Below, in pieces: positions 11,355 to 32,363 of a DNA stretch of 64,000 nucleotides; the first letter of the stretch is position 1, and each line of letters starts with the position of its first letter. This DNA comes from Cognatundibacterium oligocarboniphilum. GTDB lineage: Bacteria; Pseudomonadota; Gammaproteobacteria; Burkholderiales; Burkholderiaceae_D. A model generated the notes under the pieces. The model did not search any database, was not told where the DNA came from, and was given only the letters and a program-made list of their open reading frames with translations. The position numbers and the translations under genes were made by a program. Where the stretch lies: the NCBI RefSeq assembly GCF_013377855.1, contig NZ_JABXYJ010000003.1, positions 321,259 to 385,258 on the forward strand, in the 5' to 3' direction.

Positions 11355-11996
11355 TCAATGCATATGACGACGCGCACCGTGCAGTTGCTGCAGCAAAGCG
11401 GCATCCAGCTGCGTGCTACGCAAGATTGAGCCGCCATGCGCACTGACATAATCTCCGGCTGCTGCCAGACCGGAAAAAGCAGGCAGATTACCGGCCCGCA
11501 TCGGCCCTGGCGTATCTGAACCATGCACATACCATGCGCTGTCTGCCGTCACCCATGTCCCCTGACGCAAGTCACGTACATAAGCGACAGCGACCTCGCT
11601 TTGCTGGCGACCACGGCTGTAACGCCCGATATCCTGCAGATACACGAATAATGTCAGCGGCGAATCAAAAAACTGCGCATCACCATTCCGGAAAATCAAT
11701 TGCGCCGCCCATGTCCCGGTTTTGGCTGGATACATGCCGCATACCGGGCAACGCGCATCCGGTGGTACCGGGCGGACTGCATACACGCTCAGGCCGGACG
11801 CGGGATCAAACGGTTGCGGCGGCGCCACCACGCAGATGTCACCGGTCAACACTGGTCCTGTGCGCACTTCATGCTGCTTGCCGGGCATCCACTGAAGACT
11901 GGCGAGCACAGACAAGCCTGCACAGGTGCCCCATACCCATCTCCACGCCACCAGCTTCACACGGTCAGTCAGCATCATTTTTTCTACTTTCCTCAT
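11355..11996 (-). CDS. NosL-like protein with a CxxCGM metal-binding motif
   Basis: Second NosL-type protein of this cluster, 213 aa. One N-terminal hydrophobic segment (about residues 17-35) anchors it to the inner membrane facing the periplasm. The core carries Cys83-x-x-Cys86-Gly-Met (CPVCGMYPAKTGTW), the classic NosL copper motif, then a NosL-like domain (AQLIFRNGDAQFFDSPLTLFVYLQD). Unlike the upstream nosL it has no lipobox. It is the last gene of the nos operon, 27 bp after nosL. The start could be the internal ATG at 11978, which has GAGGA upstream. A role in copper delivery to NosZ is inferred from motif and context. Confidence 0.8.
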   Translation of the reverse strand: MRKVEKMMLTDRVKLVAWRWVWGTCAGLSVLASLQWMPGKQHEVRTGPVLTGDICVVAPPQPFDPASGLSVYAVRPVPPDARCPVCGMYPAKTGTWAAQLIFRNGDAQFFDSPLTLFVYLQDIGRYSRGRQQSEVAVAYVRDLRQGTWVTADSAWYVHGSDTPGPMRAGNLPAFSGLAAAGDYVSAHGGSILRSTQLDAALLQQLHGARRHMH

Positions 11997-12023
11997 TGCA
12001 TGGCATCTCAGCCGGTGCTTCCG

Positions 12024-12554
12024 CTACATCTTGCTGTCGTGCAGCGCACCGCCGCTCAGATCGACCATATCAGCGCGGATATCGGCATAACGCAACAACC
12101 GGCCGCCCCACTGGGTCGCAAACTGGCCGGCAGCACTCTCCTGTGAAAAACTCGCAATCGTCGTTCCCATTGATCCGCGTCGCCGGCTGCCAAATACGTA
12201 GTAAGCCGCATTCGCATCAATCCAGTTTCCCTGCGGCTGCTCCCAGTCCGCCTTGCCCATATCCTGCACATAAACCGCCTGCACTTTCCTGACCTGCTCC
12301 GGCGCCAGAAGAGTATGAAACAGTTCAACGGTATCGCAGAAAAATACCGGATTATTCTGTCCCGCATAAAATACCTGTGCCTTGGGGCCGGGAAAGTCCG
12401 ACAACAACATACCGTCCAGATCGCAGGTGGTGCGAGGATCGATCTCCAGCGGCGCCACGGACTGCTCCATTTTTTTCTCTCCGCATCCCTGCAGGATTCC
12501 CAGCATCACTGCTGTCAGCAGTACGGTGCGTCGTTTTTGATTGATTGGATTCAT
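12024..12554 (-). CDS. nosL: Copper chaperone lipoprotein NosL
   Basis: Outer-periplasmic lipoprotein, 176 aa, that delivers copper for assembly of the CuZ centre of N2O reductase. A signal peptide ends in the lipobox LQGC (Cys23). The NosL signature appears as CDLDGMLLSDFPGPKAQVF, so the second cysteine of the usual CxxCGM is Asp here. It lies 8 bp after nosY and 27 bp before the second NosL-like gene. The two proteins may be specialised for different steps or oxidation states of copper, which is inference. Confidence 0.92.
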   Translation of the reverse strand: MNPINQKRRTVLLTAVMLGILQGCGEKKMEQSVAPLEIDPRTTCDLDGMLLSDFPGPKAQVFYAGQNNPVFFCDTVELFHTLLAPEQVRKVQAVYVQDMGKADWEQPQGNWIDANAAYYVFGSRRRGSMGTTIASFSQESAAGQFATQWGGRLLRYADIRADMVDLSGGALHDSKM

Positions 12555-12562
12555 GATGTTCC

Positions 12563-13375
12563 TTATTTAAATCTCCAGCGCGCGACTGCCAGCGGCAGCA
12601 CGATCCAGCCCAGCATGACCATCGTCAGCAGCCAAGGCTGCGCCAGCATTGCCGGAACAATACTGTTCAGGCCATACAGCCCGCGCATGTCTTCCAGCGA
12701 AAATACATTCAGGATGCGGAATACATCTGCCGGATTGAGCAGCAGCAGATAAGCAAAAATATCACCGCCATACGCGCCGCCGGTGGCAACCAAGCCGCCC
12801 AGCAATAACAGATCAAACACCAGCACGAAAAAAAACCACAGCGCAATCGCCAAACCCGAAGCGCGGGTCCGCTCGCGGGCCAGTACCGACACGCAAACCG
12901 CCAGACTGAGAAACACCAATCCCAGCAACACCGATGTCAGGACAAAACCGAGATAGTGATACAAACCACCCCAGGAAAACTGCTGGAACAGCAGCACCGC
13001 GACCAGCGCAAATCCGCTGCAGGTCGACAAGCTGAGTGCAGCAGCCAGGCCGAGATATTTGCCCAACAGGATTTCGAGGCGGGTAATCGGTAATGCCAGC
13101 AGCAGGTCGAGCGAGCCGCGCTCACGTTCACCGACAATGGCATCGAACCCCAGCAGCAAGGCAATCAGAGGGATCAGATAAATCACCAGGCTGACTAGGC
13201 TAGCAATCGTGAATTCAATCGAACGCAGACCGATCTGCCCTTGTTGCGCACCGCCGAAATACGTGATCACCAGCGAAAACACCGTAAATACCAATGCAAC
13301 TGCCAACACCCAGCGGTTCCGGATACGGTCGCGGAATTCCTTGAACGCGAGGGTCAGAACTTGAGAAATCTCCAT
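12563..13375 (-). CDS. nosY: ABC transporter permease NosY
   Basis: Inner membrane permease, 270 aa, with about six helices, partner of the NosF ATPase and NosD. Together they supply the sulfur species and help copper loading for the NosZ tetranuclear CuZ centre. The N-terminus (LTLAFKEFRDRIRNRWVLAV) and the loop IVGERERGSLDLLLALPI match the NosY/ABC-2 permease family. It starts 11 bp after nosF and ends 8 bp before nosL, inside a tightly packed operon. Confidence 0.92.
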   Translation of the reverse strand: MEISQVLTLAFKEFRDRIRNRWVLAVALVFTVFSLVITYFGGAQQGQIGLRSIEFTIASLVSLVIYLIPLIALLLGFDAIVGERERGSLDLLLALPITRLEILLGKYLGLAAALSLSTCSGFALVAVLLFQQFSWGGLYHYLGFVLTSVLLGLVFLSLAVCVSVLARERTRASGLAIALWFFFVLVFDLLLLGGLVATGGAYGGDIFAYLLLLNPADVFRILNVFSLEDMRGLYGLNSIVPAMLAQPWLLTMVMLGWIVLPLAVARWRFK

Positions 13376-13386
13376 CTTCCTGTCCC

Positions 13387-14346
13387 TTAATCCGACAAAC
13401 CCAAAAAAACATCTTCCAGCGATGATTCACGCACACTCAGATCAGTCAACTCCGAACCCAGTGTCATCAGTGCAGCCAGCGCAGTCATTTTGTCGGCGCG
13501 CGGACAAGTTAGCTGCCAGCTACCGGCATTATCCAGCGCATTCCACCTTACCTGCGGCAGGTGCGCAGTCAGTTGCACGGCGCGCTGGCCGACATGCGCG
13601 CTGCAGCGGATCTCCAGATGCAGCGGCATCTGCATCTGTTCACGCAGATACTGAACCGTGCCGCTGGCCTGAATTTTTCCACCGGCCATGATCGCCAGAC
13701 GGTCAACCCTCTCCTGCAGTTCAGCCAGGATATGAGAGGTAATGATGATGCTGACGCCCTGGTCGCGCAGCGTATGCAGGGTTGCGTAAAAGTCGCGGAT
13801 CGCCTGCGGATCAAGGCCATTGGTGGGCTCATCGAGGAACAACAAGCGCGGTGTTCCCAGCAATGCCTGGGCGAACCCCAGACGTTGCCGCATGCCTTTG
13901 GAATAATCGCGCACTGGTCTTTGCATTGCCTGCGCCAGTCCGACCCGCTCCAGGATGGCGCTGCACTGTGCCTGCGGAGCGTGTTTCAGCTGCGCAAAAA
14001 AACGCAGGGTTTCCAACCCGCTAAGATTATCGTAGAGCACCACATTTTCCGGCAGATAACCCAATTGCCGCCGGGTGGTCCGGAATGCCCGGCTGCTGGT
14101 CGCCTTCCCACAAATCAGCATCTGGCCTGCGGTCGGAGAAATCAGTCCGAGCATCATTTTGAACAGGGTACTCTTGCCGGCGCCGTTATGCCCGATGAGT
14201 CCGAAAATCTCACCTTGCCTGACTTCCAGATCAACGCCGTCAACGGCATGTATTGCGCCATAGTGTTTTTTAATGCCGCTGGCATGAATCAATGTGTCAC
14301 CGCCACGGGTGGCACTAGCATCAGTGGCCGGGGAAATGCTTGCCAT
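13387..14346 (-). CDS. nosF: ABC transporter ATP-binding protein NosF
   Basis: Cytoplasmic ATPase of the NosDFY complex, 319 aa. Walker A GHNGAGKST, signature YSKGMRQRLG and Walker B LLFLDEPTNGLDP are all intact; a C-terminal regulatory extension of about 90 residues follows. I chose the ATG at 14346 (MASISP), preceded by GGAG at good distance, over a longer open frame from 14397. With this start it overlaps the end of nosD by 26 bp, implying translational coupling. Confidence 0.92.
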   Translation of the reverse strand: MASISPATDASATRGGDTLIHASGIKKHYGAIHAVDGVDLEVRQGEIFGLIGHNGAGKSTLFKMMLGLISPTAGQMLICGKATSSRAFRTTRRQLGYLPENVVLYDNLSGLETLRFFAQLKHAPQAQCSAILERVGLAQAMQRPVRDYSKGMRQRLGFAQALLGTPRLLFLDEPTNGLDPQAIRDFYATLHTLRDQGVSIIITSHILAELQERVDRLAIMAGGKIQASGTVQYLREQMQMPLHLEIRCSAHVGQRAVQLTAHLPQVRWNALDNAGSWQLTCPRADKMTALAALMTLGSELTDLSVRESSLEDVFLGLSD

Positions 14347-18330: not shown

Positions 18331-20253
18331 TCAGCCCTCGACGATCATGCGTGTGCGCATCTCCAGATGCAAGGCATGACAGAAATTGGTGCAATAAAGC
18401 CAGAATACGCCGGGCTTATCCGCCACAAAATTCACCGAAGCCGTTTCCAGCGGATTCACCACAAACTGCACGTTATATTTAGGAATCGCAATACCGTGCG
18501 TCAGATCCTCGATCTTGTCCAGATTGGTCAGGATCAGGGTGACTTCATCACCTTTTTTCAGCTTGAATTCACGCATGCTGAATGCCGGTGCCTGTGAGGT
18601 CAGTTTCACCGTCACCTTCTTGCCGTTGCGGAATACGCCGGACTCTTTCGGATCTTTGACTGCCAGCGGGAAATCATCCAGGTTGTACACCTGCTTCGGA
18701 CGCAACAGATCGCGTTTGAAGATGATGAAATCGTGCGGCTCGCCGCGTACCGGATGATCGGCCAGCAAAACCATTTTTTCGCCGGAGATATCGATGAACT
18801 GCTCGTTTTCCGGATGCAGCGGGCCAACCGGCAGGAAACGGTCTTTCGAGAATTTACAACCGACAGCGAGATATTTGCCATCTGCGGCGCGGGTTTCGGA
18901 TTGTGAGGCATTCAAGTGGCCTGGCTGATACTGCACATCGAGCCGGTCGACCACATATTTCGCATTCTTGTCGCCTTTGTGGAATTTAATCGCGGCGTCG
19001 ACATTCCATTTCACCACCTGGCTGTCCAGGAACAGCGTGGTGTAAGCATTGCCGCGACCATCGAAGGCGGTATGCAATGGGCCCAGACCCAGTTCGACTT
19101 CTGCGACGATGGCATCGTCAATTTTTTCCAGCTTGCCATCAAACCAGTCGAGCACTTTCGCCAGCTCGATCACGGTAGCGGTCGGCGACAATTTACCGGC
19201 GCAGATGAAGTACTTGGCATCCGGGCTGGCGTTCACACCATGCGGATTTTTCGGAACGCTGACATAGGCGGTCAATGCCGTTTTCGGATCTTTATTCGCT
19301 TCATGCGTACCATCCACCACCGGCACTTTGGAATCGCCGATCGTCTTGAATTTACCGGCTTTCACCGCCGCTTCAATCCGCGCCACGTTGAAGAACAGGC
19401 AGGCATCGCGTTCCGCCGACATCATGTCTTCATAATGCACACCCATTTCGGTGTTGTACTGATTGGTCGCTGCCAACTTGCCGTCATAGGATGTCGCTAC
19501 CAGATCACAGTTGCCATCAATCAGCACCTGCCAGCGTACTTCCATGCTTTCTGCATCGACGCAGGTGAACAGGGAGCGGTATTTGCTGCCGTCTTCGATA
19601 CCGGCATTCGGCAGCGGGATCGAGAATTCGCCGCCGCAGAAAACGCGGGTGGTGTAGTTGATTTTTTCATCGACCGGATCAGCCTTGTCCGGGAAAATAC
19701 CGTGGAAGCCCTGCACATTCGGCAGGTCGGTGATCTTGTCGCAGATGAAGTAATCTAGGCGGATACGGGCAACGCGTGAATTGATCTTGTCGTTGATCCA
19801 GGCGTAGCGGCCATCGTAATTACCATCCTTGTAGGAAGCATGGGTGTGATGGGTGTCGGCCACATTGTATTTCAGGCTGCCATCAGGTCTGGTGCCCATG
19901 ACTTTCTTGGATTCATTGGTGATGCCCCAGCCAACCAGCGCATCCGGCACAAAGCAGGGAATGCGGTGAATTTCACGGCCGGACGGCAAGCCCAGCACAC
20001 GCATATCACCGTTATGACCACCACTCCACAGGCCATAATAAGTATCGAGTTCACCCGGTTTCAGATGGGTTACATCTGCCGCGCTGTGCGCTGTTGCACT
20101 GGCGCTGCCAGACGCTTCTGCGGAAGCAGATGCACCGGATTTGTTATTGCATGCCACCAGACCAGTCAGACTGGCCAGGGCTGCCGTATTCATGAACTTA
20201 CGACGCCCCATCGCCAACGCATTTTCTGTGTTCGGTTTTTGATCTTGACTCAT
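18331..20253 (-). CDS. nosZ: Nitrous-oxide reductase NosZ (clade I type)
   Basis: Periplasmic copper enzyme, 640 aa, reducing N2O to N2, the last step of denitrification. The N-terminus has a Tat motif (GRRKFMN, Arg17-Arg18), followed by a lipobox-like LVAC with Cys35. The beta-propeller CuZ ligands are in DTHHTHASYKDG, PHGVNASPDAKYFI, LGPLHTAF, QPGHLNASQSET and GEPHDFI. The C-terminal cupredoxin domain has the CuA loop CTNFCHALHLEM (Cys621, Cys625, His629, Met632). The loop carries Asn623 where Pseudomonas and Paracoccus NosZ have Trp. It is the first gene of the operon and has an FNR/Dnr-type box about 100 bp upstream. Confidence 0.97.
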   Translation of the reverse strand: MSQDQKPNTENALAMGRRKFMNTAALASLTGLVACNNKSGASASAEASGSASATAHSAADVTHLKPGELDTYYGLWSGGHNGDMRVLGLPSGREIHRIPCFVPDALVGWGITNESKKVMGTRPDGSLKYNVADTHHTHASYKDGNYDGRYAWINDKINSRVARIRLDYFICDKITDLPNVQGFHGIFPDKADPVDEKINYTTRVFCGGEFSIPLPNAGIEDGSKYRSLFTCVDAESMEVRWQVLIDGNCDLVATSYDGKLAATNQYNTEMGVHYEDMMSAERDACLFFNVARIEAAVKAGKFKTIGDSKVPVVDGTHEANKDPKTALTAYVSVPKNPHGVNASPDAKYFICAGKLSPTATVIELAKVLDWFDGKLEKIDDAIVAEVELGLGPLHTAFDGRGNAYTTLFLDSQVVKWNVDAAIKFHKGDKNAKYVVDRLDVQYQPGHLNASQSETRAADGKYLAVGCKFSKDRFLPVGPLHPENEQFIDISGEKMVLLADHPVRGEPHDFIIFKRDLLRPKQVYNLDDFPLAVKDPKESGVFRNGKKVTVKLTSQAPAFSMREFKLKKGDEVTLILTNLDKIEDLTHGIAIPKYNVQFVVNPLETASVNFVADKPGVFWLYCTNFCHALHLEMRTRMIVEG

Positions 20254-20321
20254 GACAAGTTCCCCATAAACGGCCGCTCATTTTTCTCGCGAATGGCCTC
20301 GTTGATAAATTTTGACCGATG

Positions 20322-20365
20322 CAAATAGTGCGGGATCAGGTGAATGCGTGATTGAGATATATCAA
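20322..20365 (-). promoter_or_regulatory. FNR/Dnr-type box and predicted nosZ promoter
   Basis: TTGAG-ATAT-ATCAA at 20352-20365 differs from the FNR/Dnr consensus (TTGAT-N4-ATCAA) at one position. On the minus strand a TATTTG (20322-20327) lies about 31-36 bp beyond the box centre, the spacing expected for a -10 of a class II promoter with the box at -41.5. This fits anaerobic or NO-responsive control of nosZ. Confidence 0.75.
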
Positions 20366-20401
20366 CCCGCTCTTTGTCGCTGCCGGTGAGCTTTGAAAAT
20401 C

Positions 20402-20415
20402 TTGACGCAAGTCAT
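20402..20415. promoter_or_regulatory. Second FNR/Dnr-type box between nosZ and cytochrome c
   Basis: TTGAC-GCAA-GTCAT is a near-palindrome of the FNR/Dnr type. Its centre is exactly 50 bp from that of the box at 20352-20365. It may serve the divergent cytochrome c gene or act as an upstream site for nosZ. The rest of the 20254-20647 gap shows nothing else I can support. Confidence 0.55.
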
Positions 20416-20647
20416 ATTTTTACCAATAACGCTGTGAGAACATCGCTGCACTGAACAACAGATGCTTGTTCCGGGCAGGGTTTTTCCTTTTTTTTCTGTC
20501 GTCATCGCTGATGCCTGACTCTCGGGAATTTGTGAAAAAAAACCGTCGCCCGCTGCAGCCTTCCGCATGGTTTGCCGGGTATTGTCCGCCAATGACGAAG
20601 CGCGCCGGATGCGCTGTATTTTTTAATTTTTTTGAGAAAGTCTCACG

Positions 20648-21046
20648 ATGAAAATTGCTTCACTCGTTATCGCCAGCATCAGCCTCGCCGTACTGGCTGC
20701 CTGCGGTCAGAAAGCAGCAGAAACGCCTGCAACAGAATCCGCCTCCACGCCACCGGTCGCTGCAGCACCAGCGGCTGCTGCACCGGCTGAAAACAAAGTC
20801 GGCAAAACCGTATTCGGCAACACCTGCTCCATGTGTCACGCAGCCGGGGTGGCCGGTGCGCCGAAACCAGGCGACAAAGCAGACTGGGGACCGCGCATCG
20901 CCCAGGGCATGGACACGCTGTACAAACATGCGATGGAAGGTTTCAACGGTGCCAAAGGCCAGATGCCGGCGCGCGGCGGCGCGCCTGCGCTGACCGATGA
21001 TGAAGTCAAGGCCGGTGTGAACTACATGGTCGATCAGTCACGCTGA
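20648..21046 (+). CDS. c-type cytochrome lipoprotein (class I, c5-like)
   Basis: Periplasmic membrane-tethered monohaem cytochrome, 132 aa. A lipoprotein signal ends in LAAC (Cys19), an Ala/Pro-rich linker of about 30 residues follows, then the haem-binding CSMCH and a distal Met in GQMPARGG. It is transcribed divergently from nosZ and is followed by nosX, so it is a likely electron carrier in N2O respiration, to NosZ directly or via NosR. The exact partner is inference. Confidence 0.9.
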   Translation: MKIASLVIASISLAVLAACGQKAAETPATESASTPPVAAAPAAAAPAENKVGKTVFGNTCSMCHAAGVAGAPKPGDKADWGPRIAQGMDTLYKHAMEGFNGAKGQMPARGGAPALTDDEVKAGVNYMVDQSR

Positions 21047-21116
21047 TCCGCCACACCCCTGCGCACTCCGGTTCGCAGGGCATCACCATTTTTTTATTTA
21101 ATGTATGAGAGTCATC

Positions 21117-22178
21117 ATGTCTGAATCTCAGCCGATATCTCAGCCGGCATATCCGCCGATTCAAGCCGGACGCCGGCGCCTGGCACTGGCATTGCCGCTA
21201 CTGGCCTGCGGCCTGATGCTGCCGTCTGCCCGCGCGGCAACACCTGCCGCACCTGATCTGTATCAGGTCAGTCGTCCGCTGATGGGAACGCAGCTGGATC
21301 TGGCGCTGCACGGAATCGATCGGACGACTCTGACCAGCGCTGCAGATGCGGCACTGCGCGAAATGGCGCGGCTTGAGGCAATGATGAGCCGTTATCGTCC
21401 GGACAGCGCGCTGAACGCGATTCAGCTGGCAGCCGGCTTGCGTGAAGTGGCCGTGCCGCCAGAACTGATGCAGGTGTTGCTGATGGCGAAGGAGGCAGCA
21501 CAGCGTAACCCCGGGCAGTTTGACCCGACGGTCGGCTCCCTGAGCGACTGGGATTTCGATCCTGCGCATCCACATTTACCGGCACCGGAACAGATCGCCC
21601 GTCAGTTGCCGCTGGTCAATGCGCAGCATCTGATTCTGAACCCCCGTCGCGGCACGGCTTACCTGACGCAACGCGGTATGCGACTGGATCTGGGCGGGAT
21701 TGCCAAGCTACCGATTCTGCAGGCTGGCATGGATATGCTGCAACGGCACGGCGTGCGACATGCCATGATCAATGGCGGCGGCGATGTGCTGGTCAGCAGC
21801 CCGCCGGACCAGCGGCCATGGCGTATCGGCCTGCGCGACCCACGCCAGCCGGAACGTTTGCTGGGCAGTATTGCACTGCATCGCGGCTTCGTCGCCTCAT
21901 CCGGTGACTATGAACGGTATTTCACGCATGACGGACAGCGCATGCACCATATTCTCGATCCGAAAACCGGCTACCCGGCGCACGGACCACATGGCGTGGT
22001 GCTGGTCAGTGAGCAGCTCAGTGCAATTAACGGTCTGGGTGCCGCCATTATGGTGGCGGGCGCAGAAGCTGGCCGCAGGCAACTGGCAGGCATGCGGGGC
22101 ACCGATGCACTGATTGCCGGTGCCGATCAGGAGATCTGGTTATCCGCCGGCATGCGGCAGCGTTTGCAGGCAATCTGA
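21117..22178 (+). CDS. nosX: FAD:protein FMN transferase NosX (ApbE family)
   Basis: Exported flavinyl transferase, 353 aa, expected to attach FMN covalently to the Thr of NosR. The N-terminus has a twin/triple-Arg signal (GRRRLALALPLLACGLML, cleavage near ARA). ApbE features include SRPLMGTQLDL, MSRYRPDSALNAI, the MRLDLGGIAK segment, ASGDYERYF and HHILDPKTGYPA. After GGIAK the usual GYAVD-like residues are replaced by LPILQ. The start at 21117 is chosen because GAGAG precedes it closely; an in-frame ATG at 21105 is the alternative. It lies 70 bp after the cytochrome c gene and ends 19 bp from the convergent marR. Confidence 0.88.
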   Translation: MSESQPISQPAYPPIQAGRRRLALALPLLACGLMLPSARAATPAAPDLYQVSRPLMGTQLDLALHGIDRTTLTSAADAALREMARLEAMMSRYRPDSALNAIQLAAGLREVAVPPELMQVLLMAKEAAQRNPGQFDPTVGSLSDWDFDPAHPHLPAPEQIARQLPLVNAQHLILNPRRGTAYLTQRGMRLDLGGIAKLPILQAGMDMLQRHGVRHAMINGGGDVLVSSPPDQRPWRIGLRDPRQPERLLGSIALHRGFVASSGDYERYFTHDGQRMHHILDPKTGYPAHGPHGVVLVSEQLSAINGLGAAIMVAGAEAGRRQLAGMRGTDALIAGADQEIWLSAGMRQRLQAI

Positions 22179-23778: not shown

Positions 23779-24567
23779 ATGAAACGCAGAACCTTCCTCA
23801 TCGGCAGCCTGATTGCAGGCAGCGGCCTGATCGCGCCGGCGCTGGCGCAAGTCACCAACATCAGCGATGCCATCAACAAAGCAGGTCGACAGCGCATGCT
23901 GGCACAGCGGCTGGCGAAGGCCTATCTGCAGCTGGGCATGGATGTCGATACCGAACATGCCCGGAAGATTCTGGATCAGTCGCTGTCTGTATTTGATCGC
24001 CAGCTGGTTGAATTGCGTACCTTCGCTCCGAATCCGGAAACGAAAGCCAGCCTGTCGGAATCAGAAAAACTGTGGCTGGATTACAAGCAGCTTCTGGTCG
24101 GCAAAGCGCCGAACAAAAACGATGGGAAAAATATTCTCACTCTCAGCGACAAACTGATGCGTCTGGCGGACGACAGCACGACGCAGCTGGAAAAAATTGC
24201 CGGCAACAGCAGCGGCAAATGGGTCAATCTGGCCGGACGGCAAAGGATGCTGTCGCAACGCATGTCCAAGCTCTATATGGCAATGCAGTGGGAAATCGCA
24301 CCTGCCGATGCCGGCAATCTGCTCGATGGCGCCCGCAAGGAATTCATCGCCGCGCAAAATCTGCTCGGCAGCGCTTCGGTTAACACCACGAAAATCAAAG
24401 ACGAACTCGGACTGGCGCAGCAGCAATGGCTCTTTTTTGATCATGCGCTTCACCATGCTGAAGATCCGAAAACTCGGCATCAGTCAGCCACCAATGTCGC
24501 CACCAGCAGCGAGCGCATCCTGGAGCAGATGGACAAAGTCACCAGCCTGTATCAGCAACTGGCCTGA
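23779..24567 (+). CDS. Exported protein with two PilJ-type sensor repeats
   Basis: Protein of 262 aa with a Tat-like signal (MKRRTFLIGSLIAGSG, cleavage near ALA-Q) and two copies of the type IV pili methyl-accepting chemotaxis N-terminal domain (PF13675). The signature is seen twice: INKAGRQRMLAQRLAKAYLQLG (about residues 32-53) and VNLAGRQRMLSQRMSKLYMA (about 150-170). This fold is helical and related to the NarX nitrate sensor domain. There is no membrane helix after the signal and no signalling domain, so it would be a free periplasmic protein. Its ligand is unknown; closeness to nos genes suggests nitrogen oxides, which is inference. Confidence 0.85.
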   Translation: MKRRTFLIGSLIAGSGLIAPALAQVTNISDAINKAGRQRMLAQRLAKAYLQLGMDVDTEHARKILDQSLSVFDRQLVELRTFAPNPETKASLSESEKLWLDYKQLLVGKAPNKNDGKNILTLSDKLMRLADDSTTQLEKIAGNSSGKWVNLAGRQRMLSQRMSKLYMAMQWEIAPADAGNLLDGARKEFIAAQNLLGSASVNTTKIKDELGLAQQQWLFFDHALHHAEDPKTRHQSATNVATSSERILEQMDKVTSLYQQLA

Positions 24568-24719: not shown

Positions 24720-26186
24720 ATGAACAAGTCGCCTATCACCTCTCTGGACCCGGACGACTGGGTCGCATTCCGCCAGCAAAGCCATCGGATGATGGACGAC
24801 ATGCTCGATTATCTGGAACAGATCCGTCAGCGCCCGGTATGGCAGGACATTCCCGAAACAACCCGCGCCAGATACAGCGAAGCCCTGCCGCGTGAAGCCA
24901 TCAGCATCGCTGCCGCGCACCAGCGCTTCATGGAAGAAGTGCTCCCCTATTCCGCTGGCAACAGCCATCCCGGCTTCATGGGCTGGGTGCAGGGCGGCGG
25001 CACGCCCGTCGGCATGCTGGCAGAAATGCTGGCAGCTGGCCTGAATGCGAATGTCGGCGGCCGCAATCAGATGCCCGTCGAAGTCGAACGGCAAATTGTG
25101 CGCTGGATGCGCGAGCTGTTCTCGTTTCCGGAAACCGCCAGCGGCGTATTCGTGACCGGCACCTCAATGGCCAATCTGATGAGCGTGCTGATCGCCCGCA
25201 CCGCAGCGCTGGGCAAGGAAGTGCGGCAAACCGGCCTGTGCAGCGACCATATCCGGCTCGTCGCTTATACCTCGGCCGAAGCCCACGGCTGCGTTGCCCA
25301 GGCGATGGATTTGTCCGGCCTCGGCAAACAGGCGCTGCGCCGGATTCCGACGAATGCGCAACACCAGATGGATCTCGCCAGCCTCAAAGCCGCCATCGCG
25401 GCCGACCGCGCAGCAGGTCTGCGCCCCTTTTTCATTGCCGGTACTGCCGGTACCGTCGATGTCGGCGCCGTCGATGATCTGCATGCGCTGGCGGCGCTGG
25501 CAAAGGCAGAACAACTGTGGTTCCACATTGACGGCGCTTACGGCGCATTAGGCATGATGTCGGACAAGGTACGTCCACTACTGCGCGGCATAGAAAATGC
25601 CGACTCGATTGCCTTCGATTTTCACAAATGGGGACAAGTCCCTTACGATGCCGGCTTTTTGCTGGTGCGCGACAGCAGTAAACACATGGATGCGTTTGCC
25701 GCCCCGGTCGCCTACCTGCGACGCGAGGCGCGCGGCATCGCTGGTGGCTCGCCCTGGCCCTGCGACTTCGGTCCCGATTTGTCGCGCAGTTTCCGCGCAT
25801 TGAAAACCTGGTTCACATTGCAGGTGTACGGCACCGAAAAATTAGGGCAAATGATTTCGTATACCTGTGAACTGGCGCAAGCGATCTGCAGCGCCGTCCA
25901 GGCGCATCCTGAACTTGAGCTGCTGGCGCCGGTCGCACTGAATATCGTTTGTTTCCGCTATCGCGGTCTGCCATCTGTCCAGCTCACCGATCATGAGAGC
26001 GACCGGCTGAATCAGGAAATCGTGTTTGAACTGCATGAATCCGGCGTCGCCGCACCATCAACCACGATTGTCGATGGCCACCTTGCCATCCGGGCTGCGA
26101 TTGTCAATCACAGAACCAGCGAGGAAGATATTCAACGTATGCTGGCAGCAGTCATTGCGAGCGGCCGCAAGCTGATTTCCCGCTGA
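24720..26186 (+). CDS. Group II pyridoxal-dependent decarboxylase
   Basis: Cytoplasmic PLP enzyme, 488 aa, of the aromatic-L-amino-acid / glutamate decarboxylase family (PF00282). The PLP lysine is Lys303 in FDFHKWGQVPYDAGF; the PLP Asp is in FHIDGAYGALG. The substrate region SAGNSHPGFMGWVQGGGTP resembles aromatic amino acid decarboxylases. The ATG at 24720 was chosen over a TTG at 24699. It is 29 bp ahead of a TPR/ATP-grasp protein and in line with a further PLP enzyme, so its amine or aldehyde product may feed a small biosynthetic pathway. The true substrate cannot be read from sequence. Confidence 0.88.
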   Translation: MNKSPITSLDPDDWVAFRQQSHRMMDDMLDYLEQIRQRPVWQDIPETTRARYSEALPREAISIAAAHQRFMEEVLPYSAGNSHPGFMGWVQGGGTPVGMLAEMLAAGLNANVGGRNQMPVEVERQIVRWMRELFSFPETASGVFVTGTSMANLMSVLIARTAALGKEVRQTGLCSDHIRLVAYTSAEAHGCVAQAMDLSGLGKQALRRIPTNAQHQMDLASLKAAIAADRAAGLRPFFIAGTAGTVDVGAVDDLHALAALAKAEQLWFHIDGAYGALGMMSDKVRPLLRGIENADSIAFDFHKWGQVPYDAGFLLVRDSSKHMDAFAAPVAYLRREARGIAGGSPWPCDFGPDLSRSFRALKTWFTLQVYGTEKLGQMISYTCELAQAICSAVQAHPELELLAPVALNIVCFRYRGLPSVQLTDHESDRLNQEIVFELHESGVAAPSTTIVDGHLAIRAAIVNHRTSEEDIQRMLAAVIASGRKLISR

Positions 26187-26215
26187 CCGAAAAATCCGAC
26201 CTATAAGGAGAATGT

Positions 26216-27472
26216 ATGGCTGTTCCGGTCGAAGTTGCTGCACAAGCGTTTTCCCCGCTGATCGGCCTGGCGCCGATGATGCGGCATGTGTTTGAAGGTC
26301 GGGATTTACAGCCACTCGCCACGGCATTGTTAAAGCGCGCCGGCGATGATCCCGACGATGTGAATGCGCTGATGGATTGCGTCACCGTCATGCAGCTGGC
26401 CGGCCACAAAGAGCTCGCCATGACGATGCAGCAGCAGGCGATTGCGCAGCAGTCACTGTACACGTTTGCTCCCAAAGCACAGGTCGGGCTGAAGCTGCTG
26501 GTCATCATGGGACCGGGCGACCTGATGGCCAATACTCCGGTCGAATTGCTGCTGGAAGATTCCGATGTCGAACTGAGCTTGTTGTATCTGTCGCTCGATA
26601 CGCCGTGGCCGGAAATGGTGCCGGAACACGACGTGCTGCTGGTAGCGATTGCCGAATCCAATGCCAATCAGGAATTATTACGCCAGGTCGGACTGATGAC
26701 CGCCAACTGGCCGCGCCCGGTGATCAATTTACCGCAGCGGATTGCTGTCCTGTCACGCGATGGCGTCTGTGCCGTGCTGCAAAATTGCCCCGGCGTCGAT
26801 ATGCCGCTGACTGCCAGAGCAGAACGTGCCACCGTTGAACAACTGGCACAAGGGCAGATCCCGCTTCGCAGCCTGCTGAGTGATGCAGATTTTCCGCTCA
26901 TCATCCGCCCGCTGGGTTCCCATGCGGGTACGCAACTCGAAAAAATGAATGCGCCACAGGATTTACTGCCGTATCTGCAGCAAGTCAGTGCGGAAGAATT
27001 TTACCTCTCGCGTTTCGTCGATTATTCAGGTAGCGACGGCCAGTTCCGCAAGTACCGGGTCGCAGTCGTTGAAGGCAAGCCGTATATCTGCCATTACGCG
27101 ATTTCCTCGCACTGGATGATTCATTACCTCAATGCCGGCATGGGAGAAAGCGCTGAAAAACGTGCCGAAGAAGCTGCCTGCATGGAGCACTTCGATCAGG
27201 AATTCGGCCTGCGTCATCAGGCCGCTATTCTGGCGATCGATCAACGCATGGGCCTGCCTTACCTCGGTATCGACTGCGCTGAAACGCAGGACGGCAAACT
27301 GCTCATCTTTGAAGTCGATAACGCCATGATCGTGCATGCACTCGATCCGGTAGATTTGTATCCCTACAAAAAACCGGCAATGGAAAAAGTATTTAAAGCG
27401 TTCCGTCAATTGCTGGAACACGCCCGCCACCATCCTGACACACCTGCTGCGTCCGCAGAATGCGTCAGTTAG
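26216..27472 (+). CDS. TPR-like / ATP-grasp ligase-like protein
   Basis: Protein of 418 aa. The N-terminal quarter (residues 20-85) is helical and TPR-like (LATALLKRAGDDPDDVNALMDC...). From about residue 95 it has a nucleotide-fold domain, and from about 220 an ATP-grasp core: FPLIIRPLGSHAGTQLEKM, EEFYLSRFVDY, KYRVAVVEGKPYICHYAISS and, near the end, LGIDCAETQDGKLLIFEVDNAM (metal-binding Asp/Glu/Asn). Such proteins join a carboxylate to an amine or thiol using ATP. AAGGAG precedes the ATG. It overlaps the next PLP gene by 13 bp. The substrate is unknown; being flanked by two PLP enzymes suggests it activates an amino acid or peptide. Confidence 0.72.
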   Translation: MAVPVEVAAQAFSPLIGLAPMMRHVFEGRDLQPLATALLKRAGDDPDDVNALMDCVTVMQLAGHKELAMTMQQQAIAQQSLYTFAPKAQVGLKLLVIMGPGDLMANTPVELLLEDSDVELSLLYLSLDTPWPEMVPEHDVLLVAIAESNANQELLRQVGLMTANWPRPVINLPQRIAVLSRDGVCAVLQNCPGVDMPLTARAERATVEQLAQGQIPLRSLLSDADFPLIIRPLGSHAGTQLEKMNAPQDLLPYLQQVSAEEFYLSRFVDYSGSDGQFRKYRVAVVEGKPYICHYAISSHWMIHYLNAGMGESAEKRAEEAACMEHFDQEFGLRHQAAILAIDQRMGLPYLGIDCAETQDGKLLIFEVDNAMIVHALDPVDLYPYKKPAMEKVFKAFRQLLEHARHHPDTPAASAECVS

Positions 27473-28959
27473 GCTCTTGTGCAGCACTGCTGGTCAGCGG
27501 CGGTGACTCGCGGATCACTCCTGACCCGGTAACGGGTCGGAACAAATACGGCTGCCTGGCAACGCCGGATACCGGGGTGATTGCACTGGGTTCGTCAACA
27601 GCGTCCTCCATTTCGGAAAAAGGATTCCGTGCAGCGGAAGCCCTGCGGCTGAGTTGTGAACAACAACTTGCCACAGCCAGCGAAGCGGAAGTGTATCGCC
27701 GGCAGATGGATCTGGTGCGCGGTGAATTACTGAGTTTGTGCGGCTGCGCCCCTGATTCGGGAGTGGAAGCCGTGATCGCAGCCTCCGGCACCGACATGCA
27801 TCTGCTGATTGCGCAATTGTTGCAACTGCCGCTGACACTGATGATCGATCAGGCTGAAACCGGAAGCGGACTGGCCGCGGCACTGCGCGGCCAGCATTTC
27901 AGCAAAGATTCCACCTGCCTGGGTGGTATCCCGGACACAGCCAGCATCAGCAACTGGCAAGGCGCTCTGCAAATGCTGGCGGCGCGCGACGAAACAGGGC
28001 AAGCGCTGACTGCCGGGCAGATGCGGGAATCCTTGTTTGCGGCAGCAGAACCCGTACTTGCAGCGGGTGGGCAGATATTGTGCATACTGACCGATGTCAG
28101 CAAAACCGGGCTGATTTTCCCTGATATCGCGAGTCTCAAGGCTTTGCAGCAACAATGGCCGCAACAGGTACATGTACTGGTCGATGCCTGCCAGTTCAGG
28201 ATCGCCCAATGCAGCCTGCAGGCATATTTGCGACATGGCTTCATGGTTGCGCTGACCGGTTCCAAATTCCTTGCCGGCCCCACCTTCAGCGGCGCATTAC
28301 TGTTGCCTGCCAGTGTTGCCGCGATACTGCGGTCACGCTCATTACCGCCCGGTGCACAGGCTTATTCGGTGGCTGGCGACTGGCCGGCCAGTTTTGCAGC
28401 GGCGCAAAGTCTGCCGCAACAGGCCAATTTCGGCCTGCTGCTGCGCTGGGAAGCGGCACTCGCAGAATTGCGCGACTTTGTCCGGCTCGATGAGCAGCAT
28501 ATCCGTGATTTTCTATCCGATTTCAAACAGGCAGTGCTTGCCAGGCTCAGCAGCGAACCGCATTTCAGCGTGTTGCCCAATCCGGCGCTGGATCGTAGTG
28601 CACTGCACGATAGCGACAGCTGGGATGCGGAACAGAGCATCTTTCCATTCCTGTTATACCGCCCCATTTCTGCCGGCAACAGACAGCTTCTGAACAGGGA
28701 ACAGACGATGCAGATATATCTGGCATTGCAACAGCCATCGGCATCACACCGGTATCAGTTGGGGCAGCCAGTGCTGTGCGAGCTGCGCGACGGCATAGCG
28801 GTCAGCGCTTTGCGCCTGTGCGTCAGCGCCGCCATGTTAAGCGCAGCGCGCCAGAAACCGGTGGCGCAGCAACTGATCGACGACGCCCTGGCGGCACTCG
28901 ATCAGCTGGCGGTACTGATTAGCGCAATGCAGCAGCCGCCAAACACATCACGGCTTTGA
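27460..28959 (+). CDS. Fold-type I PLP-dependent enzyme, class V-like, unknown substrate
   Basis: Protein of 499 aa that resembles class V aminotransferases/cysteine desulfurases only in key places: the PLP-binding Asp and Gln in HVLVDACQFRIAQ (Asp about 242) and the Schiff-base lysine Lys269 in VALTGSKFLAGPTF. The N-terminal part (GVIALGSSTASSISEKGF) and the large insertion after residue 330 are not familiar to me. The ATG lies inside the end of the ATP-grasp gene (13-bp overlap) without a clear ribosome site, which suggests translational coupling. It closes a three-gene operon of unknown product. Confidence 0.7.
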   Translation: MRQLGSCAALLVSGGDSRITPDPVTGRNKYGCLATPDTGVIALGSSTASSISEKGFRAAEALRLSCEQQLATASEAEVYRRQMDLVRGELLSLCGCAPDSGVEAVIAASGTDMHLLIAQLLQLPLTLMIDQAETGSGLAAALRGQHFSKDSTCLGGIPDTASISNWQGALQMLAARDETGQALTAGQMRESLFAAAEPVLAAGGQILCILTDVSKTGLIFPDIASLKALQQQWPQQVHVLVDACQFRIAQCSLQAYLRHGFMVALTGSKFLAGPTFSGALLLPASVAAILRSRSLPPGAQAYSVAGDWPASFAAAQSLPQQANFGLLLRWEAALAELRDFVRLDEQHIRDFLSDFKQAVLARLSSEPHFSVLPNPALDRSALHDSDSWDAEQSIFPFLLYRPISAGNRQLLNREQTMQIYLALQQPSASHRYQLGQPVLCELRDGIAVSALRLCVSAAMLSAARQKPVAQQLIDDALAALDQLAVLISAMQQPPNTSRL

Positions 28960-29009: not shown

Positions 29010-29438
29010 TCAGGCGGATTCCCTGATGAGATGACCGTTGCCGCCGCTGTCGATTGTTTCCGACAAAATCAGGGCTTCTTTGGAAGGTATCTGCAGCAGC
29101 AGATTATTGGTTTCTTTGTCAATCACCAGTAACATCATCTTGCCTGAGCCACTGTCAACGCTGAACTGCAGGCTGCCAAAATGCGGCTGCGCATTCTGAT
29201 TGAGCTGTTCGGCAGATTTTTTCAACAAAGTGTGGTTGTCGCTGCTCTGACTGACAACAGTGGCAGCCGTATTGTCGCTGTCAACCTGTCCCGACTTAGC
29301 GGCAGCCACAGCTTGTGCAATCGTTGGCGAGGGCGGCAAAGGTGAGAGCGCAACATCCGAGGGCGCAAGGTAATTCTGTACCGCGGCTTGCACCACAGCA
29401 CCAGACTGATTACCGACAGAAAGTGTTACGCCATCCAT
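29010..29438 (-). CDS. flaG: FlaG-family flagellar protein
   Basis: Protein of 142 aa whose C-terminal half matches FlaG (PF03646): LQFSVDSGSGKMMLLVIDKETNNLLLQIPSKEAL. FlaG proteins influence flagellar filament length. No other flagellar gene is in the window, so it is an orphan copy. GGGGA precedes the ATG. It converges with the PLP operon, ending 50 bp from it. A strong AT-rich palindrome lies about 113-135 bp upstream of its start. Confidence 0.85.
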   Translation of the reverse strand: MDGVTLSVGNQSGAVVQAAVQNYLAPSDVALSPLPPSPTIAQAVAAAKSGQVDSDNTAATVVSQSSDNHTLLKKSAEQLNQNAQPHFGSLQFSVDSGSGKMMLLVIDKETNNLLLQIPSKEALILSETIDSGGNGHLIRESA

Positions 29439-29631: not shown

Positions 29632-30429
29632 CTAATCAACGGCGGCCATTTTCAGTTCATCGTTATGATGACGTTGTTGTTCCTCCATCACCAGTTGGCC
29701 CAGTTCACGCTTTAGCGCATTGAATTCCGGTGCCGCCGGATCGCGCAAACGCGGCAGATCGATCAGCAAATCTTTTTTGACTGTCCCGGGACGGTAAGTC
29801 ATCACGATGATGCGGTCAGCCAGATAAATGGCTTCTTCGATACTGTGCGTAACAAAGATAATGGTTTTTTTCAGCTCGCTCCAGATACGCAGCAATTCAT
29901 CCTGCAAATTGCGCCGGGTCAGGGCATCGAGCGCACCAAAAGGTTCATCCATCAGCATAATCGGCGAATCCAGCGCCAGCACGCGTGCAATTGCCACCCG
30001 CTGCCGCATACCGCCCGACAGGTCTTTCGGAAAGCGCTGCCGGAAATCCTTCAGTCCCAGCATGTCCAGCAACCCGGTGCAGCGACGTTCGATACTGGCG
30101 CGATCCAGCCCTTTGATTTCCATACCGAAAGCAATATTCTGCTCCACCGTCATCCACGGAAACAGGGCATATTCCTGAAACACCATGCCGCGATCCGGCC
30201 CCGGCTCGGTCACCCGCTGGGCATTCGCCATGATTTCGCCTGAAGTCGGCAGAGAAAATCCGGCAATCGCATTTAACAATGTGGATTTACCACAGCCGGA
30301 AGGGCCGAGCAGACAGACGAACTGCCCCTGAGGAATCTCCAGCTGAATATCCCGCAAGGCCACCACTTCTTTATCGCCGGTCTGGAAAATTTTATTGACC
30401 GCTTGGATACAGATATGTGCCGTGTTCAT
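29632..30429 (-). CDS. ABC transporter ATP-binding protein (nitrate/sulfonate/taurine type)
   Basis: ATPase of 265 aa of the NrtD/SsuB/TauB family. Walker A GPSGCGKST, signature LSGGMRQRVAIARVLA and Walker B PIMLMDEPFGALD are intact, followed by the H-loop THSIEEAIYLADR. It directly abuts the permease gene (ends of the reading frames touch), forming the import machinery with the binding protein at 31368-32363. Substrate class is set by the family only. Confidence 0.9.
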   Translation of the reverse strand: MNTAHICIQAVNKIFQTGDKEVVALRDIQLEIPQGQFVCLLGPSGCGKSTLLNAIAGFSLPTSGEIMANAQRVTEPGPDRGMVFQEYALFPWMTVEQNIAFGMEIKGLDRASIERRCTGLLDMLGLKDFRQRFPKDLSGGMRQRVAIARVLALDSPIMLMDEPFGALDALTRRNLQDELLRIWSELKKTIIFVTHSIEEAIYLADRIIVMTYRPGTVKKDLLIDLPRLRDPAAPEFNALKRELGQLVMEEQQRHHNDELKMAAVD

Positions 30430-31248
30430 TTAATTCTCCAGTCCGCGATGCCAGCGCAGCAGGTAGTTATTCAGTTTATTCATGGCAAGGTCGATTGCCA
30501 GACCCAGCAGGCCGATACTGATCATTCCGGCAATGATTTTGTCAGACCAAAAATATTCGCGCGCCTCCAGAATACGGAAGCCGAGGCCATTATTCACGGC
30601 GATCATTTCCGAAACGATCACCACGATGAATGCCGTGCCGATCCCGATCCTGACACCGGATAAGATATACGGTACCGCAGCAGGCAGCATCACGCGCAGA
30701 AACAGCGTGCCCTGCCCTGCTCCCAGATTGCGGGCAGCCCGGATATAGATACCGTCAACATGGCGCACGCCGGCAATCGTGTTCATCAGCACCGGAAAAA
30801 AAGCCCCGATCGAAATCAGGAAAATCGCTGGCGGATTACCCAGCCCGAACCAGAGAATAGACAACGGAATATACGCAATCGGCGGAATCGGACGCAACAC
30901 CTGAACCAGCGGATTGAGCCAGGCATACACCCGCTGGCTGGAGCCCATTGCCAGCCCCAGCGGCAATGCCAGACCGGTACCAACAACAAAGCCGACCAGC
31001 ACCCGGTACATGCTGCCGATCGTATCGCGCACCAGTTCACCGGAAAACATCCAGGACAGGCGACTCATGCTGGCAGGATCATAGGCTTCCTGCGGCAAGG
31101 CGTACTCCATCCATTTTCTGACCACCGCCAGCGGGGACGGCAGCACCTGCGGATTGACCCATTCGTTGCTGGTCACCAGTTGCCAGATTGCGATCAGGAT
31201 CACGGGCACAATCAGCCCCGCGCCCATTTCACGCCATTTCAGTTTCAT
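30430..31248 (-). CDS. ABC transporter permease (nitrate/sulfonate/taurine type)
   Basis: Inner membrane permease of 272 aa with about six helices and the EAA loop (AARNLGAGQGTLFLRVMLPAAVPYIL), BPD_transp_1 family as in SsuC/TauC/NrtB. It lies between its binding protein (120 bp upstream) and its ATPase (no gap downstream). Because the family covers nitrate, sulfonates, taurine and thiamine precursors, the substrate is open. Confidence 0.9.
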   Translation of the reverse strand: MKLKWREMGAGLIVPVILIAIWQLVTSNEWVNPQVLPSPLAVVRKWMEYALPQEAYDPASMSRLSWMFSGELVRDTIGSMYRVLVGFVVGTGLALPLGLAMGSSQRVYAWLNPLVQVLRPIPPIAYIPLSILWFGLGNPPAIFLISIGAFFPVLMNTIAGVRHVDGIYIRAARNLGAGQGTLFLRVMLPAAVPYILSGVRIGIGTAFIVVIVSEMIAVNNGLGFRILEAREYFWSDKIIAGMISIGLLGLAIDLAMNKLNNYLLRWHRGLEN

Positions 31249-31367
31249 GTGTCATCCTCACAGTACCGGAAAGAAATGCAGGCTGGCGGTATGCACCTTG
31301 CAGCCTGCGAATACGAGCAACGTTTCATATGGACGGGTCTTGACTGGCGCCCATCTGCGGATCTGAT

Positions 31368-32363
31368 TTAACGGATATTCAGGTTTTTCTTCGCCTGTTC
31401 CAGCAAGTCGGTTTTCACCCAGTCTTTCGCGACCGGTGGCTTTGCCATTCTGCCGATACCGTATTTCTGCATCAGATCCGTCGTGATCTGAATGTGCTCA
31501 GCAGTGACATCGTAAGAGTAAGGTGAATTCTCAATCGCATTCACAAAATCTTCATGGCTGACCTGCCCTTTGAACATATTTTCGCGCACGTATTTTTCCG
31601 CCAGCTCTTTATTGTCGATAAAGGTTTTGGTGGCCTCAACGAAGCAGCGCATGAATTTTTCAGCCGTCGGCCGATGCTCTTTATAGAATTTTTCCGTCAT
31701 CACCATGGTGCGCACCGGCTCGCCGATCGGTGTATCGTAAGGTTTGATGATTTCCTTGCCAAAACCTTTGTTGATCGCCTGCGAGGAATACGGTTCAGAC
31801 TGCATGATGGCATCCAGATTTTTGCCGAGCAGCGCCTGATTCAGGTCGGGAAAACCGAGATAAATGATCTGCACATCTTTGCCCGGCTGATCGGAATACG
31901 TCAGGCCATTTTGTGCCAGCTCTGCCGCCAGCAGGATGTCCTGAATGCCGCCCCGGGTCACACCGACTTTTTTCCCTTTCAGATCTTTGACGGATTTAAT
32001 ACCGAGGTCAGCCCGACCGACCAGACGCGCACCGCCTTTGGCGAAACCAGCCACCAGATAAATCGGGGTGCCGCTGGCACGCGCAGAAATCACGGCTTCT
32101 GAAGATACCGCGCCAACATCCAGTTCTCCGGCAATCACGGCCTGCATGGCATCGAGCCCTTTGGCAAACACGCGCTCTTCCACTTTAATACCGCATTTCG
32201 GCGCAATTTCCTTGATGTAGGAAACCGCCCCGTAGTGGGCAAATTTCAGATTTCCCAGACGCACCAGCTCCTGTGCCTGCGCGCTGGCTACCAGGCACAG
32301 CAGGCTGGCCGATATCATGCCTAGCATGAGGGCTGTTTTTTGGATGGATGTTTTTTTCAACAT
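31368..32363 (-). CDS. ABC transporter substrate-binding protein (SsuA/NMT1-like)
   Basis: Periplasmic binding protein, 331 aa, with a Sec signal peptide (cleavage near ASAQA-QE). The fold and motifs fit the NMT1/SsuA/TauA group: GVTRGGIQDILLAAELAQNGL, LDVGAVSSEAVISARASGTPIY, DAIMQSEPYSSQAI. AAGGAG precedes the ATG. It heads the three-gene importer. The ligand-binding residues cannot be assigned from sequence alone; nitrate, sulfonate or an aromatic acid are all possible. Confidence 0.87.
   Translation of the reverse strand: MLKKTSIQKTALMLGMISASLLCLVASAQAQELVRLGNLKFAHYGAVSYIKEIAPKCGIKVEERVFAKGLDAMQAVIAGELDVGAVSSEAVISARASGTPIYLVAGFAKGGARLVGRADLGIKSVKDLKGKKVGVTRGGIQDILLAAELAQNGLTYSDQPGKDVQIIYLGFPDLNQALLGKNLDAIMQSEPYSSQAINKGFGKEIIKPYDTPIGEPVRTMVMTEKFYKEHRPTAEKFMRCFVEATKTFIDNKELAEKYVRENMFKGQVSHEDFVNAIENSPYSYDVTAEHIQITTDLMQKYGIGRMAKPPVAKDWVKTDLLEQAKKNLNIR

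Follow-up and report, generated by a model that had tools for sequence, protein, structure and literature searches.

Three adjoining genes in a 64,000-nucleotide stretch of the genome of Cognatundibacterium oligocarboniphilum (contig NZ_JABXYJ010000003.1; we refer to this whole stretch as the window) form a conserved cassette which, with high probability, is linked to the flagellum. The genes lie in line on the plus strand and we call them DEC, GRASP and PLP. DEC (24720..26186; 488 amino acids, aa) comes first and encodes a group II amino-acid decarboxylase dependent on pyridoxal phosphate (PLP, after which the third gene is named), GRASP (26216..27472; 418 aa) joins a TPR-like N-terminus to a RimK/LysX-like ATP-grasp ligase, and PLP (27460..28959; 499 aa) encodes a divergent, class V-like PLP enzyme. 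In the genus of the window genome (this is the meaning of 'genus' in all counts below), the final residue of flagellin varies together with the cassette.

Results

The three genes are kept together

The window genome is 3.67 Mb in size, and its ligase is 97% identical to that of Undibacterium griseum, now Cognatundibacterium griseum (Oxalobacteraceae, Burkholderiales). DEC ends at 26186 and the ATG of GRASP stands at 26216, leaving a gap of 29 bp in which a ribosome-binding-like AAGGAG (26205..26210, plus strand, read from the sequence) precedes the ligase gene; the ligase stop at 27472 lies past the ATG of the third gene at 27460, an overlap of 13 bp. A preliminary description of the window had given this spacing and proposed that the three genes are one unit, a proposal that other genomes support, since homologues of the three are not usually found apart. 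Among 89 fetched loci other than the window, picked for matching PLP or GRASP, 64 carry the complete trio on one strand within at most 6.4 kb, and these come from 22 genera. The order is DEC-GRASP-PLP in 58 of the 64 as read, and likewise by tblastn in L080, where a long open reading frame (ORF) begins earlier; other orders are PLP-GRASP-DEC in three loci and GRASP-PLP-DEC in two plus two Rhizobium plasmids. All sampled loci belong to one phylum. Pairwise distances are correlated among DEC, GRASP and PLP (r 0.83-0.88 over 63 loci), which partly reflects shared ancestry.

The cassette is patchily distributed. PLP homologues are present in 48/399 genomes of the order and 14/36 genomes of the genus, and GRASP-type matches in 11/274 genomes of the class and 23/299 of the phylum. 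When the class and phylum are searched with GRASP as the only seed, 21 strong loci result (450 bits or more, with flanks fetched; a 22nd strong locus, in G899, stands outside the count). DEC adjoins the ligase in 20 of them, and PLP is also present in 13. The sole strong locus lacking DEC is L134, where a class V aminotransferase, SerC-like in appearance, is found. DEC itself is present in 22/36 genus genomes (11 by search and 11 as trio loci), and the genus genomes without it gave no ligase match among the 36. In two of the other cassette genomes, G069 and G289, DEC is missing from the locus and lies elsewhere in the genome. In a few lineages the ligase is partnered with a SerC-like enzyme instead of DEC: in L134 (9924-12277), L136 (8564-10940) and L128 (11941-14306) the gene after a GRASP homologue encodes a class V (SerC-like) aminotransferase, which takes the place of both DEC and PLP, and in L134 and L136 flagellar genes adjoin. 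These partners, and a ParB-like gene next to the PLP gene of rhizobia, hint at a link to O-phosphoserine, which is no more than a hunch.

Families and conserved residues of the three enzymes

We aligned the window protein with 38 of 41 fetched copies of GRASP, 34 of 40 of PLP and 28 of 37 of DEC, omitting copies that contain a stop as read, are too long, are truncated at a contig end or nearly duplicate another copy; 'invariant' is meant for the aligned sequences only. In all three families the catalytic residues that one would expect are invariant in this sense, with the exception of D368 of GRASP, and together with the family matches they bear out the preliminary picture of two PLP enzymes and one ATP-dependent ligase. 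DEC matches PF00282 with 222.6 bits (cut-off 27) and is the group II decarboxylase it was taken for; Lys303, Asp271 and Tyr332 are kept in 29/29 sequences, and of these we take K303 to be the Schiff-base lysine and Y332 the tyrosine of the catalytic loop. Its nearest solved structure is 4obu, a 'pyridoxal-dependent decarboxylase domain protein'.

As a single sequence GRASP has no Pfam match. The family profile (39 sequences), compared with the PDB, finds both of the parts first described: its closest solved structure, at E 7e-4, is the RimK-type ATP-grasp protein 3vpd, named as a ribosomal protein S6 modification protein, and a match to a TPR protein comes next (E 9e-3). Weak TPR matches (E up to 0.1) are seen in up to 12 of the 39 members. 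D353 and E366, both putative metal ligands, occur in 39/39 sequences and D368 in 37/39, and presumably these are the metal-binding acidic residues of the ATP-grasp fold.

The third protein was described as a PLP enzyme of no familiar family, and this is how it appears here. The window protein alone matches no family and does not reach the cut-off of Aminotransferase class V (PF00266), 3 of the 35 members touch Aminotran_5 (E up to 0.1; best 2e-4), a few members have weak class V or cysteine-desulfurase-type matches, and the family profile finds nothing in the PDB at E up to 1. Lys269 and Asp242-x-x-Gln245 are kept in all 35 aligned sequences, a combination that we take to be the class V motif. 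Profile comparisons of PLP with DEC and with the SerC-like protein found nothing, and structures predicted from two sequences (window and L002) have a mean pLDDT of 32.8 for PLP and 34.9 for GRASP. In L052 (8028-10493) and L065 (9085-11559) the PLP ORF exceeds 820 aa, about 300 aa beyond the usual length.

No named pathway for the trio, as the preliminary description had it, is found in Pfam, NCBIfam, PADLOC or the open-licence literature searched, and among the papers listed there none describes the trio or a C-terminal flagellin ligase. The PADLOC anti-phage models match none of DEC, GRASP and PLP at E <=0.01, and on this ground we rejected a role in anti-phage defence.

Flagellar genes around the cassette

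A flagellar marker lies within 10 kb of 26 of the 64 complete cassettes, in 9 of the 22 genera; in the window's genus this marker is FlaG only. Home-made profiles together with single sequences served to find these markers, and they under-count; Pfam backs FlaG, flagellin, FlgN, MotB, FlgK, FlgE-type and FlaF at some loci, FlgB comes from record annotation, and FliD, FliS, FliT, FliK-like and FlhB-like are labels assigned by eye. Of 80 cassette-gene genomes, at least 13 have a flagellin-domain gene (PF00669) no more than 15 kb away, compared with 1.65 expected from random placement; the 13 is a lower bound counted by hand, in which four genes (in G352, G163, G405 and G293) are probably a flagellin-like hook protein. 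A PF00669 match is present in 77/80 cassette-gene genomes versus 44/52 PLP-free genomes.

The flagellar setting varies from lineage to lineage. In L052 and L065 the cassette stands beside FlhB-like and FliK-like genes and fliC-flaG-fliD, in L063 ahead of fliC-flaG-fliD, and in L148 after fliS. In L085 its neighbour is flgN, accompanied by motB, a sigma-factor gene and an flhF-like gene, and L164 repeats this flgN context with flgB-type genes on the opposite side. Two loci of one genus from another class (L143, L157) have the cassette beside flagellins and flgK/flgE genes, L150 has flgK/flgE only, and L161 has the same genus context with DEC and GRASP alone. Further orders or classes contribute loci that have the ligase but no PLP and that likewise lie near flagellar genes (L131, L134, L136, L161). 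In L186 (7052-12349; genome G069), two TPR-ATP-grasp fusion ORFs of 832 and 543 aa directly precede flhB-flhA-flhF-like genes, one of them with a cysteine-rich, zinc-like N-terminus by eye.

Within the genus, the association is with a second FlaG paralogue. In the window it lies at 29010..29438 on the minus strand, convergent with the cassette (PF03646, 50.4 bits, cut-off 23.8), a neighbour that the preliminary description leaves unnamed; the other FlaG of this genome (G000:C30:264519) is beside flagellin (G000:C30:265980) on a different contig. The genus holds 49 FlaG matches, of which 17 are away from flagellin, and all 17 adjoin DEC, 10 with the trio and 7 with a shortened cassette; the sole FlaG of G021, near a contig start and with flagellin on another contig, could not be assigned. 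In the seven shortened cassettes PLP is gone and DEC is intact throughout, whereas GRASP is intact in two, broken by a stop in one and undetectable in four (L179, L181, L182 and L184, where DEC stands beside FlaG and PLP too is undetectable).

The last residue of flagellin

Flagellin ends in ...LLR in 10 of 12 sampled genus genomes with a complete trio, and it carries one extra terminal residue (17 Gly, 1 Ala) in all 18 sampled PLP-free genomes (Fisher 2.2e-6 for flagellin end against trio presence); the sample excludes the trio genomes G007 and G035 as well as G008, G019, G021 and G024. The last column was the top column of the scan (11 versus 11 genomes, p 2e-4), and the 8 of 30 genomes that stood outside the scan tests (six shortened cassettes, G006 and G025) all agree with the pattern.

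To place this in a phylogenetic context we use a tree of flagellin with the C-terminus removed and four outgroup flagellins added, which is a flagellin tree and not a species tree. The end states are scattered over this tree, with 8 changes, about as many as the 8.8 found when labels are shuffled. In six sister comparisons R is the last residue on the trio side and not on the opposite side (G017/G009; G027-G033/G003; G022/G010-G001-G012; G014/G018-G034; G000-G029/G028-G016; G006/G025), and a further one, G004-G026/G031, is a tie. Hitch-hiking is an unlikely cause, because in the trio genomes with both on one contig (G005, G014, G026) a distance of 0.66 to 2.8 Mb separates cassette and flagellin. 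Of the two ends, the one with the extra Gly may have come first, since 4 of 6 main flagellins from PLP-free genomes of the same family also end in Gly.

Outside the genus, the extra Gly occurs in 0/22 PLP-bearing and 6/17 PLP-free genomes (p 0.004). This comparison takes one chosen main flagellin per genome and leaves further flagellins (e.g. in G386, G067 and G062) uncounted; it omits G037 and G040 (no C-terminus), G061, G073, G075, G352 and G427 (no match), G070 (weak match) and the flagellins of L131, L134, L161 and L143.

Five loci (L053, L057, L180, L183, L185) have, between FlaG and DEC, a gene for an HExxH-bearing protein that appears in no other fetched locus nor in the window. The protein (5601-6533 in L053) and its homologues are uncharacterised and share an invariant HEFGH motif, with a weak match to Peptidase_Mx1 (E 2e-4) below the cut-off. 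The flagellin end is known for four of these five loci and is Gly in all four; put the other way, the gene is present in 4/4 ligase-bearing genus genomes whose flagellin is known to carry the extra Gly, one of them with a stop-interrupted ligase. It stands beside the cassette in 0/10 trio genomes with an R-ending flagellin (p 0.001, from few lineages), one of which, G017, has a contig end about 300 bases upstream of DEC, so that an HExxH gene could lie beyond it.

Discussion

A possible modification of the flagellin C-terminus

The repeated flagellar neighbourhoods, taken together with the covariation of the flagellin C-terminus, make the flagellar filament the likely target of the cassette. 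We give an even chance to the idea that this is a protein-modification cassette dedicated to the flagellum; that flagellin is what becomes modified seems somewhat better than even, and that its C-terminus is the site falls a little short of even. RimK adds residues to the C-terminus of a protein, which makes the C-terminal carboxylate of flagellin a natural candidate. In such a scheme, DEC would decarboxylate an amino acid to an amine, the class V-like enzyme would make or reshape an amino-acid precursor, the TPR part of GRASP would hold the protein target, and the RimK-like core would convert a carboxylate to an acyl phosphate and then to an amide. The preferred acceptor would be the C-terminal carboxylate of a terminal Arg or Lys of flagellin; cassette genomes would keep a bare ...LL(R/K/Q) end, and cassette-free genomes may carry a gene-encoded extra Gly. 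In its most specific form, which we offer tentatively and think rather doubtful, an amine or amino acid made by the two PLP enzymes would be coupled by the TPR-guided, RimK-like ligase to the Arg/Lys carboxylate as a cap, cassette-free lineages would fix an encoded extra Gly, and where a cassette genome still encodes this Gly, an HExxH peptidase from the same operon would first trim it. Such a cap would presumably sit on the inner wall of the filament channel, and the model predicts a C-terminal mass shift of flagellin. If true, this would be a new type of filament modification by amino-acid chemistry and a protein-directed ligase, and it would give a role to three families without names in a cassette that is patchy yet widespread; the bold case is a flagellin modification with a possibly categorically new mechanism.

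A number of our results weigh against this picture. The C-terminal pattern is a post hoc find from a scan of 1840 column tests, the trio genomes G004 and G026 break it with ...LLRG, and flagellins of trio and non-trio genomes show no difference in length or composition. Outside the genus, 11/17 PLP-free genomes likewise have no extra Gly, so a bare flagellin end does not need the cassette. With the markers used, 38 of the 64 complete cassettes have no flagellar marker within 10 kb. GRASP scores 15.9 bits with the RimK model TIGR00768 and does not reach its cut-off of 143.4. PLP homologues adjoin nonribosomal peptide synthetase (NRPS) genes at places where no flagellar gene is annotated. DEC, moreover, is still under purifying selection in L179/L184, a pair of genomes that lost GRASP and PLP (dN 0.009 versus dS 0.21), and may serve some purpose by itself. 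Lastly, the window has no sigma-28-type promoter. In a first set of loci, with a motif widened after a first look, a perfect sigma-28 motif precedes 4/34 DEC genes versus 0/276 control genes (overall p 0.19), and in a second set it precedes 0/35 versus 2/753, which is no general enrichment; sigma-28 promoters were rejected as a general explanation.

Other readings of the cassette

The cassette could modify the flagellum elsewhere, for example by acylating or amidating a flagellin-borne sugar, a side chain, FlaG or part of the hook, with the C-terminal correlation incidental. Published flagellin-modification clusters in Shewanella and C. difficile do contain ATP-grasp genes, TPR/glycosyltransferase-9-type genes follow the cassette in L077 and L079, and in L127 (a Cupriavidus plasmid) glycosyltransferase genes lie ahead of a split ligase gene. 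These three are the only glycosyltransferase-type neighbours among those examined, a part of all; no sugar gene is in the cassette or constant beside it in the clusters of 40 loci, and this reading gives the C-terminal covariation no place. We judge it unlikely.

The preliminary description suggested a small molecule, and a related possibility is that the cassette makes a diffusible amide-type compound that is merely useful to motile cells. What speaks for this is the company that PLP keeps in rhizobia, where one homologue comes right after a giant NRPS gene (Sinorhizobium) and another follows the AMP-binding gene of an NRPS locus on Rhizobium plasmids, and in L060, where a homologue accompanies a different ATP-grasp protein and a different decarboxylase before an NRPS-like ORF. 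Two Rhizobium plasmid cassettes, moreover, show no flagellar neighbours by annotation or HMM labels, and DEC is able to persist alone. The PLP homologues at the rhizobial NRPS loci and in L060 suggest that the same chemistry also serves peptides. As the main reading, however, a free small molecule gives way to the filament: no transporter or carrier-protein gene is a constant neighbour among 40 loci, and the recurrent placement in flagellar clusters, the linkage to FlaG and the covariation with flagellin would be left aside, which makes it an improbable account of the cassette.

A third reading has the cassette serve general amino-acid metabolism and puts its association with flagellar genes down to hot spots in the genome and common descent. 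It would suit the 38 cassettes away from flagellar markers, the single sampled phylum and a shared phylogeny that feeds the correlated protein distances, and is nonetheless very improbable given the excess of nearby flagellin-domain genes, the flagellar contexts that differ between lineages and the 17/17 FlaG copies adjoining DEC.

Neighbouring genes and related loci

The preliminary description saw no transporter beside the trio. This needs correction, as sulfonate-type ABC transporter genes lie nearby, past FlaG on the minus strand (29632-32363), with a binding protein that is SsuA-family-like and scores below the cut-off. The transporter is probably not part of the unit, because its binding-protein gene recurs in just 3 of 95 loci (L046, L047, L049), all from the window's genus. 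Directly upstream of the cassette is a gene with two PilJ stretches (23779-24567); the gene at this position in the U. griseum locus clusters with no gene from the rest of the 40 loci. Further upstream (18331-22178), NosZ (a TAT-dependent nitrous-oxide reductase), an ORF of 132 aa and a gene for an ApbE-like FMN transferase, which scores below the model cut-off, make up an ordinary denitrification locus.

Two related loci deserve a separate description. In L124 (Sinorhizobium medicae WSM419 pSMED03), the PLP homologue (11971-13506) overlaps the end of the giant NRPS gene by 4 bp, and genes for a SagB-type dehydrogenase and a PPTase follow downstream. This is possibly a little-known peptide cluster, for which we found no paper in the literature searched. 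L060 (8102-18216) combines a PLP homologue, a PF14397 ATP-grasp protein, an Orn/Arg-type decarboxylase and, by eye, an NRPS-like ORF; judged by sequence, the same three activities would here come from families unrelated to GRASP and DEC.

Comparison with known systems

To our knowledge, known flagellin modifications are sugars, methyl groups and their decorations, placed on side chains. The window cassette contains no nucleotide-sugar or glycosyltransferase gene of the kind that marks flagellin glycosylation. One flagellum-linked parallel is the sfmABCDE flagellin-modification operon of Shewanella oneidensis, which, in the available parts of its description, ends in an ATP-grasp gene, SO_3265, and in this resembles our cassette; unlike the cassette it has NeuB-, TPP-enzyme-, reductase- and methyltransferase-like genes and, in those parts, no PLP pair, and its modification is described as likely nonulosonic acid on serines (PMC3765264). 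The type B flagellin cluster of C. difficile, likewise from partial accounts, holds the ATP-grasp gene CDR20291_0245 (PMC5207246) and its glycan has a taurine-Ala-Gly cap (PMC5207245), so that an ATP-grasp gene and an amine (taurine) recall the cassette, while its glycosyltransferases and FemAB-like and cyclodeaminase-like genes set it apart; the word stem 'decarboxyl' is absent from PMC5207245. As far as these excerpts go, both clusters build sugars, unlike the cassette. A Bradyrhizobium RpoN study (PMC13207237, in part) tabulates an ATP-grasp gene that could not be tied to the GRASP family.

Two other systems resemble the cassette in their chemistry. One is the MfnA/MfnD pair of methanofuran synthesis, an archaeal cofactor pathway, in which a group II decarboxylase is combined with an ATP-grasp amine ligase. 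Here the logic is like that of the cassette, decarboxylation followed by ATP-dependent amide formation; DEC differs from MfnA (TIGR03812, 78.4 bits against a cut-off of 299.4), and we know of no flagellar link of the methanofuran pathway. The other comparison is with the RimK and LysX ligases, which share with GRASP an ATP-grasp core with the putative metal-binding D...E.D/N residues, and from which GRASP is distinguished by its added TPR-like N-terminus and its fixed partnership with two PLP enzymes.

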